From Acidobacteriota bacterium (GTDB lineage Bacteria > Acidobacteriota > Terriglobia > Terriglobales > Acidobacteriaceae), in contig JARLGJ010000063.1 of the NCBI GenBank assembly GCA_031296105.1, forward strand, positions 1-64,000: DNA of 64,000 nt, given 5' to 3'. Within the stretch, counting starts at the first letter, position 1. Every line of letters starts with the position of its first letter. This document shows, in pieces, positions 46,915 through 60,248 of the stretch. A program made the translations under genes and the position numbers. Under the pieces are notes generated by a model, which did not search any database, had not been told where the DNA came from, and saw only the letters and a program-made list of their open reading frames with translations.

Positions 46915-46989
<75 letters not shown>

Positions 46990-49978: not shown

Positions 49979-50677
49979 CTACTGGCTGGCCGGACGGTCG
50001 CTGTCAGGTTCGGTAGCCACGCGTGAGTTGTGGCGCACGTCGGTGCCGTTCACCCAGAAGATGACATCCTCGGCGATATTGGTGGCGTGGTCGGCAATGC
50101 GCTCCAGACTGCGCGTGATGAGCAGCACGTCCATGTAGATACGTATGCGCTCGGGGTCCTTCTTCATCTGCGCCACCAGCGTGATGAACGCTTCGTCCTT
50201 CATGCGATCGACGATGGAATCCATCTGCAGAACCGCCTGGGCAACGTCGGACTTTGCCGAGAGGAAGCTCTCCAGGGCGCGGCGGACCATGGTGGAAACC
50301 GCGGTGGTCATGCGCGCGATATCCACCGGGATCACCAGCTCCTGCTCCTGCGCCACGTTCAGCGAACGCTGCGCGATGTTCACCGCCAGGTCGCCGACGC
50401 GCTCGAGGTCCGAGTTGATTTTGAGCACGGCCAGCACAAAGCGCAGGTCGGTGGCCATGGGTTGCTGCATGGCCAGCAGGTCCACACCCATTTCATCGAT
50501 GGCGCGCTGGCTCTCATTAATGAGCTTCTCGCGCTCAAAAACTTCCTGGGCAATGCGTCCATCGCGTTTGCGCAGAGACTCGGAGGCCAATTCGATCGCC
50601 GATTCCGCGAGGCCGCCCATTTCAAGCAGCCGTTCCTTAAGTTCGTCCAACCCTTGCTGAAAGCGAGTACGCATCAT
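49979..50677 (-). CDS. phoU: Phosphate-transport regulatory protein PhoU
   Basis: A 232-residue helical protein with two PhoU repeats, each with the E(K)xxDxxxD-type metal motif ([13 protein letters not shown] in the first, [16 protein letters not shown] in the second). It links PstSCAB to the PhoR kinase and represses the Pho regulon at high phosphate. Last gene of the pst operon; its ATG overlaps the pstB stop (ATGA). Confidence 0.94.
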
Positions 50678-51435
50678 CCAAACCTGCCCGTAATGTAGTC
50701 TTCTGTCCGTTTGTCGGAGGGCGTGGTGAAGATCTTCTCCGTCTTATCGAACTCGATGAGCTTGCCCATAAGGAAGAAGCCCGTGTAGTCCGCCACGCGC
50801 GCGGCCTGTTGCATGTTGTGGGTGACGATCACCACCGTGTACTTGGTCTTGAGCTGGAAGATCAGCTCTTCGATCTTTCCGGTAGAGATCGGGTCCAGGG
50901 CGCTGGCCGGCTCGTCCATCAGCAGCAGTTCCGGCTGCACGGCCAGGGCGCGCGCAATGCAGAGGCGCTGCTGTTGTCCGCCGGATAGCGATGCGCCTGA
51001 CTTCTTCTTGAGAACGTCGCGAACCTCCTCCCAAAGAGCAGCCATGCGCAAAGAGCTTTCCACCGCAGCGTCCAGTTCGGCGCGCCGGGTAAAGCCGTTC
51101 AGCCGCAGCCCGGCGGCCACGTTGTCGTAGATCGACATGGTGGGAAACGGATTCGGCTTTTGGAAGACCATGCCGATCCGGCGGCGCACATCCACGGCGT
51201 CGGTGCCCGGCGCATAGATTTCCATTTCGCCGACCTTGACCGAACCGGTAAGGCGCGCATCGGGATTCGTCTCGTGCATGCGGTTCAGGCAGCGCACGTA
51301 TGTGGACTTGCCGCAACCCGAGGGGCCGATCACGGCAGTCACCGCGTTCGGCCCAATCTTCATATTGACTTCGTTCAGTACCTGCGCCTTACCAAACCAG
51401 GCATTCAGGTTGTTGACTTCAATTCCTACACCCAT
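50674..51435 (-). CDS. pstB: Phosphate ABC transporter ATP-binding protein PstB
   Basis: A 253-residue ATPase: Walker [29 protein letters not shown] (diagnostic of PstB), signature [15 protein letters not shown], Walker [14 protein letters not shown] and [10 protein letters not shown]. It powers high-affinity phosphate uptake with PstCA. AAGGAG lies 11 nt upstream of the ATG. Confidence 0.96.
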
Positions 51436-51456: not shown

Positions 51457-52320
51457 CTAAGCGTTGTTCGCCATGGTGCCGCGGCTGGTCACTACGCGCA
51501 CGGCAGACACGGCGATGACAATCAAGAGAATCAGGATCAGCGCGCCAGCCCAAGCCTGACGATGCCACTCGTCAAAGGGCGAAATAGCGTACGAAAAAAT
51601 CTGCAATGGCAGCGCGGCCGTCGGCTGATTCGGATTCAGGTTCCAGAACTGGTTGCCGAAGGCGGTAAACAAAAGCGGAGCGGTTTCACCGGCTACGCGG
51701 GCAAAGGCCAGCATGGCACCCGTGATGACGCCCTTGCTGGCGGTGCGCAGCGTAACTTGCAACGTGGTACGCCACTGCGGAATGCCCAGGCCCAACGCCG
51801 CTTCGCGGATTGTGTTGGGCACCATCAGCAGCATCTCTTCCGTGGTGCGGGCGATGGTGGGAATCATCATGATGCCCAGGGCCACGCCGCCACTGAAGGC
51901 CGAGAAGTGATGCTGCGGCAGCACCACCAGCGCATAGGCCGAGATGCCAACCACGATGGAAGGAACGCCATTCAACACGTCGGCCGTGAAGCGCACCAGC
52001 GTAACCAGGCGCCCGTGGCCAAACTCTGCCATGTAGATTCCGGCACCGATCCCCAAGGGCACGCCGAGGACGGAACCAAGACCGAGGATCATGAGTGAGC
52101 CGACGATGGCATTGGCCATGCCGCCTCCATCTTCACCCACGGGTTTGGGAAGGTGCATGAGAAACGCGAGATTCAGCGAGCCCACACCCTTCATCACCAG
52201 GTAGCCGAAGATGGCCACCAGCGGCGCCAGCACAACCACGGACGCCAGAATGGCGGAGCCGATAAAGGCCAGGTTGGACAATTTGCGGAACGAACTGACC
52301 GGACGATTGAGATTAGGCAT
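51457..52320 (-). CDS. pstA: Phosphate ABC transporter permease PstA
   Basis: A 287-residue permease with six hydrophobic helices and the EAA-type loop REAALGLGIPQWRTTLQVTLRTA. Its start overlaps the end of pstC by 8 nt. VVGISAYALVVLPQHHFSAFSGGVALGIMMIPTIARTTEEML is characteristic of PstA. Confidence 0.94.
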   Translation of the reverse strand: MPNLNRPVSSFRKLSNLAFIGSAILASVVVLAPLVAIFGYLVMKGVGSLNLAFLMHLPKPVGEDGGGMANAIVGSLMILGLGSVLGVPLGIGAGIYMAEFGHGRLVTLVRFTADVLNGVPSIVVGISAYALVVLPQHHFSAFSGGVALGIMMIPTIARTTEEMLLMVPNTIREAALGLGIPQWRTTLQVTLRTASKGVITGAMLAFARVAGETAPLLFTAFGNQFWNLNPNQPTAALPLQIFSYAISPFDEWHRQAWAGALILILLIVIAVSAVRVVTSRGTMANNA

Positions 52321-53368
52321 GGGCCTGACCTCCTCGTCCGCGAGTGATGGACCACACCAGCAACCGGGCGCAGGCGTTAACGATCACCGTGACGATGAGC
52401 AGCGCCAATCCAATTTCCACCAGTGCGCTGAGGTAAAGGTCGTCGCTGGCCTCGGAAAACTCATTGGCAATGACCGAGGCCATGGTGTACCCCGGCGCAA
52501 GCAGCGACTTGGAAATCTCCGGCCGGTTGCCGATCACCATGGTGACAGCCATCGTCTCGCCAATGGCGCGGCCCAGCCCCAAAATAATTCCGCCCATGAT
52601 TCCGGCGCGGGCGTTGCGCAGGACCGCCATGCGCACCATCTCCCAGCGCGTGGCGCCCAAGGCCAGCACGGCTTCGCGCTGGTTCTGCGGCACAGCCACC
52701 AGAACCTCGCGCGTGATGGAGGCGATGATGGGAACGATCATGATGGCCAGAATGACGGCGGCGGCCAACATGCCAATGCCATAAGCGGGACCGTCGAATA
52801 GGCCCGTCCAGCCGAGCGCCTTGGCCAGCCAAGGCTCCACGTAGGTGCGCAGGAGCGGGGCCAGTACGAAGATGCCCCACAGTCCGTAAATCACCGAGGG
52901 AATGGCAGCCAGCAGCTCAACAGTGAAGGAGATGATGCCGCGCAGACTGCGCGGGCAAAGTTCGGTGACGAAGACCGCTACACCCACCGCCAGCGGCACG
53001 GCCAACACCAGCGCCACAAACGAAGAAACCAGCGTGCCGTAAATAAATGGCAGGGCGCCAAAGTCACCCGAGACCGGATCCCAGGTATTGCCCACGAAAA
53101 AGTGCAGCCCAAACTTGGCGATGGTCAACTGCGAGCGCGACGCCAACTCATAAAAGAACAGCGCCATGATCGCCAGGATCGAGAGAGCGCAGATCAACAG
53201 TCCGTTGCGGAACAATACATCGAGCAGCTTGCTGATGCGGCTGCTGCGCAACTCAATATGCGGAACCTCGATGTGCTCGAAGGGCTTAACCCCGGCGGTC
53301 TGGCCGACCACCGGCGTATGAAAGCGCGGAATGGGAGGACGAACGTCTGATTCAGGTGCGGTACTCAC
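52313..53368 (-). CDS. pstC: Phosphate ABC transporter permease PstC
   Basis: A 351-residue permease with about six to seven hydrophobic helices; EAA loop REAVLALGATRWEMVRMAVLRNA and the following AIGETMAVTMVIGN are typical of PstC. The N-terminal ~60 residues are a hydrophilic extension. It starts with GTG 53368; GAGG is only a base or two upstream, so this start is not firm. Confidence 0.93.
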   Translation of the reverse strand: MSTAPESDVRPPIPRFHTPVVGQTAGVKPFEHIEVPHIELRSSRISKLLDVLFRNGLLICALSILAIMALFFYELASRSQLTIAKFGLHFFVGNTWDPVSGDFGALPFIYGTLVSSFVALVLAVPLAVGVAVFVTELCPRSLRGIISFTVELLAAIPSVIYGLWGIFVLAPLLRTYVEPWLAKALGWTGLFDGPAYGIGMLAAAVILAIMIVPIIASITREVLVAVPQNQREAVLALGATRWEMVRMAVLRNARAGIMGGIILGLGRAIGETMAVTMVIGNRPEISKSLLAPGYTMASVIANEFSEASDDLYLSALVEIGLALLIVTVIVNACARLLVWSITRGRGGQAHA

Positions 53369-53505: not shown

Positions 53506-55398
53506 TTACGGGAAGATGTAGCGCATGCCAAGGTACACATCGTTGTCGATGCCCTTCGGCTGCTTCACGCCACTCATCTGCCAGAGCTGACGGTTGACGT
53601 ACTCGTACTGGCCGCCATAACGGAGGATGCCAGCAGCACCCTTGTACACGTCATACCAAGCCGCCAGCGTACCGTCGATGATGGCCTTGTTGCTGCCGCC
53701 AATGCCGTAGCCCAGCTTCTGCCAAGCGCCAACCGTCTGCGTGTAGGTAGTTGCGCTCGTCGCCACGGGGGCGCCGAGTGCCCGGTTATAGTAGAGCGAG
53801 CGGAAATAGTACTCGGTACCCGCATAGACATCGAGCTCGAAGCGGGGGGTCGGGTGAGTTTCCGCGCCCAGAATGGCGCTGGCACCCTTCACATCCTGCA
53901 GCGTGCCTACCGGCGAAGGCGCGCCTGCAAACGTGGACGTCGCGTAGATCGTCCCCGCCGGCAGAACCGTCGTCGTCGTTCCACCGCTCGTGTAAGTAAG
54001 AGCCGAGGCCAGGTAGCTGTAAGTATTGGCGCGAACCACGACGTCAGCCTGACCGGAATCCTGGTAGCGGCTGATGCCCTTGCCAAACAGACCCTGGAAG
54101 ATTACGTCAACCTTCTTCGGAACCACAGGGATGATGGCACCAGCGCCGAAGCCCGTGCCATCGGTGTAGTGCTTGGTCACGCCATAGCGGTCACGGAAGA
54201 AGCGCTGCACGGCCTTGACTTCATAGTGGCCGAGCTTGGGGTCGTCGTAGGCCAGCTTAACGGCGATGTCGGGCGCCACGTTGGTGGAGAAAGTGCTGGT
54301 GTAGGAGCAAGCCGCAGTGGTGCTGGCGGTGCTTACATCCGCGCAGGTGGTGGCAAACGACGAACCAAGATTGCCCGAGCCTGTGGTCAGGATACCGGCG
54401 ATACCGTTTTGGCTGGCGCCGATGTAGGTAAGACCGTTTTGGATCAGAGAAGGATCAATGGCCGAAAAGGCCACGGTGAACTTCTTGTCGAAGGACTTGG
54501 CCACGCGGATTTCAGCCTCACGGCCCCAATCCCAACCCACTACGTAGTTGGTATCCAGCGTGTTCGGAACCCACGGGGCATCCGCATCGGCGGCCTTGCG
54601 GTTCATGGTAACCAGGTTCCACATCTGACCGCCGGTGATGCTCCAACCATCCGTGGTCTTCACGCGTCCCCAAGCCTGGCGGACGCGGAAGGGCCATGCG
54701 GTCGTCTGGTTAGGGTTGGCGCTACCCACGCCATAGAAGTCACCTTCGACGTATCCGGTGAGCTTCAACTTGCCGGCATCGCCATCCAAACGCAGCTTGA
54801 GCTGCGAGGCGCGGGCGCTCATGGCAAACTCGCTCAGATTGCCGAAGCTCGTCGAGCCGCTCAGAGCGTTCTCCAGCGGGATCGCGTTGAACGACGTCGC
54901 CGGACCAGAGTTATTGGCACGCTCGCGATAGTATCCGGTGAGATCAAAGAAGCCGCCGGGAGTGATGCGTACGCCCTTGAACGCGATGCTGTTGGGATGC
55001 TCGAGGTCAGCCACTGACTTGGCAACCTTCGCGGTTGTGGCATCGTTCTTGGCCAAGTCGCCCTTCACATCGGAAAGGTCGGCCTGCACCTTCTGCACCT
55101 GGACGTTCGTGCTGTCGATGGCACTGGCCTTGGCATTGGCCGCATTGGCCGCTGCCTGTGCCGCGGAGAGATCCTGACGCGTCTGCTGCAACTCCTGCTG
55201 CGTCTGCTTCAACTGCTCCTGCAACTGCGCAGTCGCGGCCTGTTGCTGTTCAATGGCCTGTCTCAGGTCCTTGATTTGGTCGGCGCTAACTTCCGTCTTT
55301 GCCGGCTTAGCCTTTTTCTTTACTCCGCTGTCGGACGGAGCTGCAAAGCAAAGTCCGGAGAGCGCAATCACCGCTACCAGCTTCTGAAAGTTCCTCAT
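53506..55398 (-). CDS. Outer-membrane porin with N-terminal coiled coil (probable phosphate porin)
   Basis: A 630-residue protein: signal peptide (~1-20), then a Gln/Ala/Lys-rich coiled coil (~30-120, QLKQTQQELQQTRQDLSAAQ) and a long beta-barrel region with alternating aromatic/hydrophobic strands to the C-terminus, which ends in Phe-Pro (MRYIFP). The coiled coil may bind peptidoglycan or form trimer stalks. It sits between pstS and pstC on the same strand, so import of phosphate is the likely role, in the manner of OprP; the specificity is inferred from context. Start ATG 55398 chosen for GGAG upstream. Confidence 0.8.
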   Translation of the reverse strand: MRNFQKLVAVIALSGLCFAAPSDSGVKKKAKPAKTEVSADQIKDLRQAIEQQQAATAQLQEQLKQTQQELQQTRQDLSAAQAAANAANAKASAIDSTNVQVQKVQADLSDVKGDLAKNDATTAKVAKSVADLEHPNSIAFKGVRITPGGFFDLTGYYRERANNSGPATSFNAIPLENALSGSTSFGNLSEFAMSARASQLKLRLDGDAGKLKLTGYVEGDFYGVGSANPNQTTAWPFRVRQAWGRVKTTDGWSITGGQMWNLVTMNRKAADADAPWVPNTLDTNYVVGWDWGREAEIRVAKSFDKKFTVAFSAIDPSLIQNGLTYIGASQNGIAGILTTGSGNLGSSFATTCADVSTASTTAACSYTSTFSTNVAPDIAVKLAYDDPKLGHYEVKAVQRFFRDRYGVTKHYTDGTGFGAGAIIPVVPKKVDVIFQGLFGKGISRYQDSGQADVVVRANTYSYLASALTYTSGGTTTTVLPAGTIYATSTFAGAPSPVGTLQDVKGASAILGAETHPTPRFELDVYAGTEYYFRSLYYNRALGAPVATSATTYTQTVGAWQKLGYGIGGSNKAIIDGTLAAWYDVYKGAAGILRYGGQYEYVNRQLWQMSGVKQPKGIDNDVYLGMRYIFP

Positions 55399-55479
55399 GT
55401 CTCGTTGCTCCAGAATTTCACTTCTTGCCTGCGTCGAGTTGCGCGCGTGCAAGAACAGTTAGTGACACAATCTCGATCG

Positions 55480-55650: not shown

Positions 55651-55682
55651 AAAAAGAAAAGAGCGGAGCTTTCGCTCCGCTC
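55651..55682 (-). terminator. Rho-independent terminator of pstS
   Basis: A 9-bp stem GAGCGGAGC / GCTCCGCTC (55661-55669 with 55674-55682), loop of four; on the minus strand it is followed by TTTTCTTTTTG. Placed 22 nt after the pstS stop, it separates pstS from the porin unit. Confidence 0.82.
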
Positions 55683-55703
55683 TCCTTTGGACCTAACTTG
55701 CAG

Positions 55704-56711
55704 CTAGTGGATAGTATCGACCGTCGCCTTGACTTTCCTTACAACCTCTTTAGGCAGTGGTGCATAGCTCAGTGCCCCGGCTTGGTTTTGACCATTCTGG
55801 AGCATCCATTCTAGAAAATCATGCAGCACCCGGCCCTTGTTACCATCTCGAGACTGTTTGGGAATGAGCAGCCAGGTAAAACTTGAAATCGGATAGGCGT
55901 TCCTGCCTTCGGCATTGGTGATGGAAACACGGTAGTCGGCGGGCATGTTGGCGGCGGCGCCCGCTGCGGCGGCGGTCACCGTTTCCATGGTGGCTTTTAC
56001 GAAATTGCCAGCCTTGTTGCGCACCGAGCCGTAGCTGATGTTGTTCTGCACCGCATAAATCAGCTCGACGTAACCGATTGCTCCGTCCATTTGGCGAACC
56101 TGCCCGGCAACTCCTTCGTTGCCCTTGCCGCCGAGGCCGACCGGCCACTTGACGGCCGTGTTGGCACCCACACGGGACTTCCACTCGGGACTTACCTTGG
56201 AAAGGTAGTCGGTAAAGATGAACGACGTGCCGGAGCCATCCGAGCGGTGCACCACGATGATGGGAAGATTGGGGAAGCTAACACCGGGATTTACGCGGGA
56301 AATCTGCGGGTCGGCCCAGTTTGTGATGTGACCGAGAAAGATACCGGCCAGCAACTCCGGCGTGAACTTCAGCTCCTAGCGGACGCCGTGAATATTGTAA
56401 GCAGGAACCACGCCGCCAAGCACCGTGGGGATGTGCAGGATGGGACGCCCCGCCTGGGCAAGCTGCTCGTTAGTCATGGGGCCGTCTGAAGCGCCAAAAT
56501 CCACGGTGCCGGAGATGATCTGGCGTATGCCGGCCCCAGAACCGAGCGACTGATAGTTAATCTGCACGCCGCGATGCGAACCGCTGTATTCGGAAAACCA
56601 CTTCTGGTAGATAGGGGCCGGGAACGAGGCACCGGCGCCATTCAAGGATTGCGCCGAAGCAACGGCGCACAGGGCCATTGCACAGGCCAGTACTTTGAAG
56701 AAACGTGTCAC
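55704..56711 (-). pseudogene. pstS: Phosphate-binding protein PstS interrupted by an in-frame TAG
   Basis: One reading frame of 335 codons with a TAG at codon 112 (56376-56378). Upstream of it: signal peptide (residues ~1-20), LNGAGASFPAPIYQKWF, INYQSLGSGAGIRQI and VDFGASDGPMTNEQL, i.e. the first phosphate-binding lobe. Downstream, in the same frame: LKFTPELLAGIFLGHITNWADP, VVHRSDGSGTSFIFTDYLS and the rest to a normal end. Everything but one codon is intact, and total length is normal. The GTG start has a perfect AGGAGA site 6 nt upstream. Either a true nonsense mutation, a sequencing error, or suppression; if real, the periplasmic receptor is lost. Confidence 0.88.
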
Positions 56712-56804
56712 AGGTTTGTCTCCTTTTCTCTATGACCTGAGTATCTGGCCAGTAAGATTACGAGACGGTGAAAGGAATGTTAATTTCTGGTTACAGGATA
56801 ATGA

Positions 56805-57506
56805 CTACCGGCCGTCGGCTTGCTCCAAAAGAAGTTGTTCGGCCGGCCGGTCATGCGCGCGGAGCACATGGCGCACCGTACGCCCGCTGACCAGGTGGCA
56901 AACTTCTTCGGCCATGTTCTTTGCATGGTCGCCTGCACGCTCAAGTTCCTGCGCCATGCACAACACGTGAAAGCTGTCTGGACGGCGCAGGCCGTCTTCT
57001 GGCTCCAGGTGGCGGAAGGTGATGATGTTGCGGAGACGGTCGATTTCGCTATCGGCCCGCAGCACGCTGACCGCTTTATCCAGCGAGCGGTCGCGGAAGG
57101 CTGTCTCCACGTCTCCCAGCATTTTCTCCAACTGCGATCCCATGGCAGTAAAGTCGCGAACGTCCTCCGGCGCGAAGCTGGCCGCGGCGGTTTCCGCGCG
57201 GTTGGCAAAGCTGAGCAGCAGATCGCCGATGCGCTCCAGGGAGATGCCGAACTTCATGCAGGCCAGCAGCAGCCGGGCTTCCTCGTCGCCGACATGAGTG
57301 ATGGTGGTTGTCACCAGGTCATCGATATCGCGGTCGAGAGAGTCGAGGGCACGCTCATGTTCGCGAACCTCCTCCAGCAGCGCGCGCGCACTGGTGGCCA
57401 CGCCTTCCGCCGCCGCCGTAGCAGCGCGATGCGCAACGCGAAGAGCTTCGTAGGTGAGTTCCAGCAAATGCGAATTGCCGGCTGCGGGAGAGTTGGGCGC
57501 GCTCAT
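56805..57506 (-). CDS. Second PhoU-family protein
   Basis: A 233-residue helical protein with two PhoU-type repeats (ISLERIGDLLLSFANRAE and AQELERAGDHAKNMAEEVCHL). It differs clearly from the PhoU at 49979-50677. It lies between phoR and pstS and may be the one acting on PhoR. Start ATG 57506 with GGAG 8 nt upstream; the extra upstream codons are unlikely coding. Confidence 0.88.
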   Translation of the reverse strand: MSAPNSPAAGNSHLLELTYEALRVAHRAATAAAEGVATSARALLEEVREHERALDSLDRDIDDLVTTTITHVGDEEARLLLACMKFGISLERIGDLLLSFANRAETAAASFAPEDVRDFTAMGSQLEKMLGDVETAFRDRSLDKAVSVLRADSEIDRLRNIITFRHLEPEDGLRRPDSFHVLCMAQELERAGDHAKNMAEEVCHLVSGRTVRHVLRAHDRPAEQLLLEQADGR

Positions 57507-57665
57507 GACAAGGCTCCGAAAGCAGTGAACGCACGGCGGCAAAAAGTTGAGAGGCCGCCACTGAATAAGCCTGCGGCCTCTCAAGCCCCCAAGTTCATTG
57601 CCTGTAACTTAAACGCCCCGCGTTGCGGAAGGATGAGCGCAGAGTAAATATCCTGTAAATCGCGG

Positions 57666-59399
57666 TTATTCTTCCTCGCCGCTGCGCGCTTCCGGCAGGG
57701 TGAAGACAAACGTGGAACCGTGGTTCAACTCGCTCTCGGCCGAGATGGTGCCGCCGTGGGCGAGGATGATGTGTTTGGCGATGGCCAGACCAAGGCCGGT
57801 ACCGCCGCTCTCGCGCGAGCGTGCTTTGTCCACGCGGTAAAAGCGCTCGAAGAGGCGTGGCAGATGCTCACTGGCAATGCCGGGACCGAAGTCGCGGACA
57901 TAAAACTCGACGAAGCCCTCTACGTCGTGCGCGCCGATCAGAATGCGTCCGCCCGAGGCCGCATATTTACAGGCGTTATCGATGAAGTTGGAAAATACCT
58001 GGAAGACCACATCGCGATCGGCGGAAACCAGCTTCAGCGCCTCATTCACCACGTCCAGCGTCATGCCGCTCTCCGCGCGATGATCGCGGAAGTAATCCGA
58101 GGCGTCGCGCAACAACTCAGCGGGCGACACCGGGCGGCGATTCAGCTTCTTGTCGCCGGATTCGACACGCGCCAGGATCAGGAGATCCTCGGTAAGACGC
58201 GTCATGCGCGAGGCATTCTTGCGAATAATTTCCAGAAAATCGCGTTGCGTCTCTTCGGAGTTGACGCCCTCCAGAAGGGTCTCCGCGTAACCCTGGATCG
58301 AGGTCAGCGGCGTGCGCAGCTCGTGCGAGACGTTGGCGATAAAATCGCGGCGCGTGGTCTCGATCTTCTCCGCGTCGGTGAGATCGTGCAGCACCGCCAC
58401 CGAGCCGCCGCTAGGCATGGGCGCCACGGTGGCGGAGAAGATGCGTCCGGAGACGAAAGAAGTGACGCGAGCCGTGGTGGGCTGATGGTTGCGCGCCGCA
58501 TCCTGCACGGCGGAGAGAAAGCTGGGGTCGCGCACGGTTTGCACCACCGGCTGGCCGAGACGGACGCCGGTGGGCGTGAGCAATTCCATGCGGCGGTTGG
58601 CCCACTGCGCGCGCCCGTCGGGCGTAATGGCCACCACCGCCTCTTGCATTCCGTTGAGCACGGCCTCCAGTTCGCGACGGCTGGCTTCCAGTTCCTCAAA
58701 GCTTGCCTGGAGCTTGCGTGCCGTCGCATCCAGCGCCATGCCCACCTTGCCAAGCTCATCCTGGTGAAATTCAGCAAGGCGCGCCGAGTAGTCTCCCGCG
58801 GAAATTTTCGCGGCAAAGTCCAGAATTTTTTCCAGGCGTGCACTGGCGCCGCGCGAAGCCCAGATGGCAACAAGCAGCGCAATGACAAACGCCAGCGCCG
58901 AGGCATAGATGAGCGAGCGCCGCACCTTAAAGCCAGCCTCCGCAATGGCCGAGAGCGGCACGGCCAGGCGGACGGCGCCGCCGCGAACGGGCTGCGCCAG
59001 ATACAAAAAGTCCACGCCGAGCGTGTGGCTGTTGCGCGTATCCACGCCAGTGCGTCCGGCCAGCGCCTCCTGGAATTCGGGACGGCGGGCGTGATTTTCC
59101 ATGGTCTCGACATTGGCGCCGGAGTCGGCCAGGACCTGCCCCGTGTTGTCAATGACGGTGGCACGCGCGCCAGAGGCTTGCGAAACTGAAAGAACAATGG
59201 GAGAAACGTTTTCCGGAGTGAGGGGAACAGCAGCGATGCGCTGCGCCAGCAGCGCTGTCTCCTGCTGCAAGCTGCTTTGAATCTGCTCGCGCAAGGAGAC
59301 CCGCCACGCGTGAGTGATGGCAATGTCCAGGGTCAGCGTGGCAACGGCAATGACAAGAGCAAAAGCAAAAAACAGCTTGAAGAAAATCCGATTCGTCAC
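57666..59399 (-). CDS. phoR: Phosphate sensor histidine kinase PhoR
   Basis: A 577-residue kinase: N-terminal membrane helix, periplasmic domain (~30-155), second membrane helix (~167-185), HAMP (~190-245), PAS (~250-330), HisKA with NVSHELRTPLTSIQGYAETL (His is the phospho-acceptor) and HATPase with FIDNACKYAASGG, DFGPGIASEHLPRLFERFYR and GTGLGLAIAKHI. GTG 59399 overlaps the phoB stop (GTGA). The presence of a full periplasmic domain is longer than in E. coli PhoR. Confidence 0.92.
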   Translation of the reverse strand: MTNRIFFKLFFAFALVIAVATLTLDIAITHAWRVSLREQIQSSLQQETALLAQRIAAVPLTPENVSPIVLSVSQASGARATVIDNTGQVLADSGANVETMENHARRPEFQEALAGRTGVDTRNSHTLGVDFLYLAQPVRGGAVRLAVPLSAIAEAGFKVRRSLIYASALAFVIALLVAIWASRGASARLEKILDFAAKISAGDYSARLAEFHQDELGKVGMALDATARKLQASFEELEASRRELEAVLNGMQEAVVAITPDGRAQWANRRMELLTPTGVRLGQPVVQTVRDPSFLSAVQDAARNHQPTTARVTSFVSGRIFSATVAPMPSGGSVAVLHDLTDAEKIETTRRDFIANVSHELRTPLTSIQGYAETLLEGVNSEETQRDFLEIIRKNASRMTRLTEDLLILARVESGDKKLNRRPVSPAELLRDASDYFRDHRAESGMTLDVVNEALKLVSADRDVVFQVFSNFIDNACKYAASGGRILIGAHDVEGFVEFYVRDFGPGIASEHLPRLFERFYRVDKARSRESGGTGLGLAIAKHIILAHGGTISAESELNHGSTFVFTLPEARSGEEE

Positions 59400-60097
59400 T
59401 TTACGCTCTCGAAGCGATACCCAGCGCCACGCACCGTGCGCAGATACTGGGGTTCCTCGGCATCCTTTTCGATCTTCTCGCGGATGCGGCGCACATAGAC
59501 GTCCACCGAACGCGGCGTAACGTAGGCCGTGTCGCGCCAGACGGCGTCAAGCAACTGGTCGCGCGTAAAGACCCTTCCCGGATGCCGCGCCATGTACTCC
59601 AGCAGGCGGAACTCGGTTGCCGTAGTGGCCACGGTTTTTCCGCAAACCTTCAGAATCATGGCGCCGCTGTCGATTTCAATCTCGCCGGTGGTAATCACTT
59701 CAGGCGCTAGCGGGCGCTCAAAGCGGCGCAGCACGGCCTTGACCCGAGCCGTCAGTTCGCGCGGGCTGAAGGGCTTGCCCACGTAATCGTCGGCACCCAG
59801 TTCCAGGCCCAGCACGCGGTCGCTCTCACTGGTTTTGGCCGTGAGAAAGATAACCGGCGTCATGGCAATGGCCTGGTTCTGGCGAATGCGGCGGCACAGC
59901 TCAAAGCCGTCGCCCCCGGGGATCATGATGTCCAGCAGAAACAGCGCGGGCTTGTCGCGCTCCGCTTCGCCAATCACCAGTGGGGCTGCGGAAAAGATCC
60001 GTACGTTGAAACCGGCGGCCTCGAGATGGTGCTTGATCAGGCGCGCAATGTCGGCTTCATCCTCTACGACGTAAATGAGGGGTTTCATCGCCTTCAT
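59396..60097 (-). CDS. phoB: Phosphate-regulon response regulator PhoB
   Basis: A 233-residue OmpR-type regulator. Receiver: acidic pair VVEDEADI, phospho-acceptor Asp in LFLLDIMIPGGDG, Thr in FLTAKT and Lys in GKPFSPRE. The winged-helix domain (TATEFRLLEYMARHPGRVFTRDQ ... SVDVYVRRIREKI ... RTVRGAGYRFE) binds PHO boxes. Start ATG 60097 is preferred over ATG 60088; neither has a strong ribosome site. First gene of the phoBR pair. Confidence 0.94.
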   Translation of the reverse strand: MKAMKPLIYVVEDEADIARLIKHHLEAAGFNVRIFSAAPLVIGEAERDKPALFLLDIMIPGGDGFELCRRIRQNQAIAMTPVIFLTAKTSESDRVLGLELGADDYVGKPFSPRELTARVKAVLRRFERPLAPEVITTGEIEIDSGAMILKVCGKTVATTATEFRLLEYMARHPGRVFTRDQLLDAVWRDTAYVTPRSVDVYVRRIREKIEKDAEEPQYLRTVRGAGYRFESVK

Positions 60098-60204
60098 TGT
60101 ATTCAGCCACTCCCGCGGCGGGAACACCTGCCGCGCGCTTTTCACATGCTTGTAACATTTCAGACGATCCGGAGACGATTTGCAACCGGAATGCGTGTTC
60201 CCTG

Positions 60205-60248
60205 CAAAACCAATAGGGAGAGCCACTTGGCTCTCCCTATTGGTTTTG
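60205..60248. terminator. Long perfect inverted repeat, probable bidirectional terminator
   Basis: A 21-bp perfect stem with a 2-nt apex (60205-60225 with 60228-60248); arms contain ATAGGGAGAGCC with CAAAACC at the base, so T-tracts follow on either strand. It lies 15 nt past the cytochrome oxidase subunit IV gene and about 108 bp upstream of phoB. Confidence 0.75.

Follow-up and report, generated by a model that had tools for sequence, protein, structure and literature searches.

Deletion of any Pst component in E. coli has been reported to cause overexpression of the Pho regulon (PMC5775613), and PHO boxes have been described as direct repeats of 11 nucleotides (PMC4415409). The literature search returned background on Pho signalling and no paper on the pstS gene described here or on its host organism. 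The gene is located in a stretch of DNA of 64,000 nucleotides (hereafter the window) from an Acidobacteriota bacterium whose draft genome comprises 3.45 Mb in 74 contigs and is ~99% complete. The window pstS is similar to the PstS of PstSCAB systems (TIGR00975) in that both share the GAGASF, VDFGASD, and HRSDGSGTS loops and the pst-pho locus setting. It differs from them in that the window copy has an internal amber codon and a terminator and a porin-like gene lie between its transcription unit and pstCAB.

The frame of the window pstS consists of a GTG start, 334 further codons, and a terminal TAG. The protein has 335 residues including the amber position, and 334 of the 335 codons are open. 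The sole internal stop is a TAG at codon 112 that is flanked by NIHGVR and ELKFTPELL. The N-terminus is signal-peptide-like. When the gene is read through, it matches TIGR00975 with 397.9 bits (cut-off of 205 bits) over profile positions 1-314 of 315 with the one TAG inside. PBP_like_2 is matched with an E-value of 2e-40 by the read-through protein and with E-values of 5e-15 and 9e-20 by the separate halves. The read-through protein also has a PDB match over residues 18-329 (E-value of 5e-94) where the nearest PDB relatives are all PstS (1ixh, 2abh, 8ods, and others). The stop is preceded by the loops that start at residues 25, 57, and 70 and followed by HRSDGSGTS at residue 155; the phosphate-binding loops of both lobes are not encoded in one open chain. 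The preliminary description had reported an otherwise intact frame of 335 codons with a signal peptide, both lobes, and a terminator, interrupted by a single TAG in a complete phoBR-phoU-pstCAB locus. All of these points are confirmed by the sequence, the PBP_like_2 halves, and the terminator hairpin.

The features of the locus are shown in Table 1. No internal stops were found in 12 neighbouring genes of the pst-pho-cox cluster. The gap after the window pstS is 250 bases and includes the terminator, which separates pstS from the downstream genes. Since this terminator lies between pstS and the porin-pstCAB genes, no polar effect of the amber on pstCAB is expected. Polarity was rejected on account of the terminator and the gap. 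No Pfam porin family is matched by the porin-like gene in the window. In the genus, porin-like genes with an N-terminal coiled-coil part adjoin pstS, both in the window and at L090:9101-10792 (Porin_5), where the gene lies 3' of a second pstS copy (pstS2). Their position beside pstS suggests an outer-membrane phosphate porin that is tied to the Pst system.

Table 1. Features of the pst-pho locus in the window.
Feature	Position	Strand	Remarks
phoU	49979..50677	(-)	
pstB	50674..51435	(-)	
pstA	51457..52320	(-)	
pstC	52313..53368	(-)	
Porin-like gene between pstS and pstC	53506..55452	(-)	coiled-coil N-part
Intrinsic terminator 3' of pstS, between pstS and porin-pstCAB	55657..55686	(-)	hairpin, 13 pairs then T-rich tail
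pstS (phosphate-binding protein), one amber	55704..56711	(-)	TIGR00975, PBP_like_2, PDB relatives
Internal TAG, codon 112	56376..56378	(-)	alignment; Gln (CAG) in G001 and G002, Gly (GGC) in G003
Pho-box-like array upstream of pstS	56756..56805	(-)	five hexamers, exact 11-bp period: GTCATT, GTAACC, TTAACA, TTCACC, GTAATC
Second PhoU-domain gene, upstream of pstS	56805..57584	(-)	
phoR-type sensor kinase	57666..59399	(-)	sCache-like, HAMP, HisKA, HATPase
phoB-type response regulator	59396..60226	(-)	

An open pstS is present in all three genus mates (G001, G002, and G003), with ~74-77% identity to the window copy over the full length. This identity and the single stop in an otherwise open frame are judged to be more than chance. 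The gene order in G001 is coxII-I-III-IV, phoB, phoR, phoU-like, pstS, porin, pstC, pstA, pstB, and phoU. In G002, whose contig ends at pstS, the order is identical as far as the contig extends. The order in G003 is similar, with additional copies of the porin gene. The genes of the genus mates also resemble the window copy in that a Pho-box-like array lies a comparable distance, 40-44 bp, ahead of their start; they differ from it in being uninterrupted in all three. A pstS match was identified in 53 of the 61 genomes searched, with the host genome counted, and no internal stop was found in the main pstS match of any of these genomes except that of the window. The only other in-match stop among the 61 genomes is in a 38-residue match in G003. 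It belongs to a 129-bp piece (L094:6451-6580) that shares 89% identity with the 3' end of the intact G003 pstS and lies between two porin2-like genes. We read this piece as a decayed pstS duplicate that arose from a tandem duplication of pstS and porin. Besides more distant relatives, the genome-contig scan retrieved a single genus mate; a second genome of the species was not among the results.

Three pstS genes were identified in the host genome, and the two besides the window copy are both full-length and uninterrupted. The first, pstS2, is located on contig C47 (L090:7957-8961) and is ~69% identical to the window pstS. It has the loops GAGATF, VDFGASD, and HRSDGSGTT. In the tree, pstS2 is the sister of the clade of operon-linked pstS genes of the genus (support of 96/90). 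The second, pstS3, is located on contig C26 (L091:7749-8867) and is the first gene of a second complete pstS-pstC-pstA-pstB operon. Directly upstream of this operon (L091:3885-7419) are a multihaem-cytochrome-like gene with repeated CxxCH and a gene for an 873-aa protein that has no Pfam match.

The preliminary description had proposed that the strain would be without its phosphate receptor and that Pho signalling would be constitutive. The first proposal is contradicted by the open pstS2 and pstS3. The analogy with the Pho-constitutive pst-null mutants of E. coli (PMC5775613) would apply if the sole pstS had been lost. Unlike those mutants, the host keeps two other open pstS genes, whose function is predicted from sequence, and a second pstSCAB operon. 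Constitutive Pho signalling cannot therefore be concluded, because that would need the loss of the only copy.

The Pho-box-like array upstream of the window pstS is the only one that reaches its score in the window on both strands, and no array at that score was found in 10 shuffles of the plus strand of the window. As the pattern used for scoring was set up when this site was already known, independent support comes from pstS2 and the three genus mates. The arrays in these four are located 40-47 bases before the start, and pstS2 has a four-repeat array at L090:7871. Only a weak array was found for pstS3, as 54 of 1000 shuffles reach its score. With 11-bp direct repeats upstream, as expected for the Pho regulon, the window pstS and its closest paralogue pstS2 both look PhoB-controlled, where PhoB binding is predicted.

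Two of the three genus mates have Gln (CAG) at the position aligned to codon 112, which makes one transition from CAG to TAG the simplest origin. The origin from a sense codon by one base change that had been proposed earlier is supported, with CAG favoured. The idea that the codon was a hotspot of deamination, as the presumed ancestral CAG would have been part of CCAGG, a CCWGG site of the Dcm type, was considered and rejected. The genome yielded no match to the C5-cytosine methyltransferase family (PF00145), and depletion of CCAGG/CCTGG in the window was not clear. Relative to the genus mates, dN amounts to 0.17-0.20 in the part 5' of the stop and to 0.14-0.18 in the part 3' of it, at a distance where synonymous sites are near saturation and recent relaxation would not be visible. 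Relaxed selection after the stop was rejected since dN is no higher there than before the stop. No second lesion was found in the window pstS, and both its promoter array and its terminator are intact. The similar divergence on both sides of the stop, together with the intact promoter and terminator, indicates either that the stop arose very recently or that a single base of the sequence is wrong.

We lean slightly towards a real and recent nonsense allele, present in the organism or in part of its population and buffered by pstS2, where the weights given to this and the other explanations are a matter of judgement. If the TAG is real in the organism, the operon-linked pstS would have acquired one recent point nonsense mutation, most simply from Gln CAG to TAG. 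Termination at codon 112 would produce a stub without the second half, including the HRSDGSGTS phosphate loop, and such a stub should not bind phosphate. pstS2 probably can serve PstCAB in its place. The loss would be tolerable because pstS2 has retained the conserved motifs of the phosphate loops as well as a Pho-box-like promoter of its own, and because there is a second complete PstSCAB. The decayed copy in G003 is a precedent that adds to this tolerability, as it indicates that redundant pstS copies do decay in the genus. The loss would nevertheless be unusual, since an open copy has been kept at the same place in the genus mates. There is also no sequence sign of decay in the window copy, and this would fit a gene that is intact in reality equally well. 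A further-reaching reading is that the lineage is swapping its operon-linked receptor for the separately located and Pho-box-controlled pstS2-porin2 pair, with the old receptor just lost by the nonsense mutation. We consider this unlikely.

The explanation that the gene is intact in the organism is given somewhat less than an even chance. The TAG would then stem either from an error of one base in the consensus or the assembly, or from an allele of a minority strain that entered the assembly. A single substitution with no second lesion, unchanged constraint 3' of the stop, and an intact promoter array and terminator are what this explanation expects. The other examined genomes without an internal stop in the main pstS match, the 12 clean neighbouring genes, and the draft state of the 74-contig assembly also favour it. 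However, the assembly is not visibly error-rich, as none of 112 domain matches (54 ABC and 58 receiver, two large families from which the in-frame stop rate of the genome was sampled) contains an internal stop, and the paralogues make a real loss tolerable.

Translation of the amber by a suppressor tRNA or by leaky readthrough, which would yield some or all of the PstS at full length, is very improbable. The frame is open and constrained up to the terminal stop, which speaks in its favour. However, no CUA anticodon was found among 40 tRNAs when ARAGORN was run on every tRNA locus from the genome search, and the search for an amber suppressor tRNA was negative in this respect. The recovered tRNA set is incomplete (e.g., Ile-GAU, Ala-UGC, and Glu-UUC were not found in the assembly), so this absence is strong and not absolute, and an unassembled suppressor is conceivable. 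Two tRNA-Cys (GCA) genes were found at separate places (46915-46989 in the window and L019:1498-1572). RF1 with the PAT motif (RVPATETQGRVHTSA) and RF2 are both encoded in the genome. The best match to pyrrolysyl-tRNA synthetase has 20.5 bits against a cut-off of 178, and a similar weak match is present in most control genomes. TAG is the terminator of 7 of 13 local genes, including pstS itself. An amber suppressor or pyrrolysine system was rejected given the lack of a CUA tRNA, the low PylS score, and the lack of widespread in-frame TAG. Together with RF1, TAG as a normal terminator, and the stop-free domain matches, the lack of a CUA tRNA means that recoding of TAG in the host is not indicated, as had been concluded earlier.

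The possibility of a gene that is naturally split into two products, a stub and a fragment restarted at a TTG at 56354, can practically be dismissed, because the 216-aa ORF after the amber that would encode the fragment starts within the mature domain and lacks a beginning that resembles a signal peptide, the genus mates encode one continuous chain, and no examined relative has a split gene.

The isolated nonsense codon was correctly observed in the preliminary description, and the phenomenon is an ordinary one. If real, the slightly favoured nonsense allele would be one more recent case that is buffered by paralogues. Before a single broken pstS is taken to imply constitutive Pho signalling, the whole genome needs to be checked for further copies. 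The conserved arrays (TTAACA/GTAACC/TTCACC type with an 11-bp period) provide a motif that can be used to map the Pho regulon of the genus.
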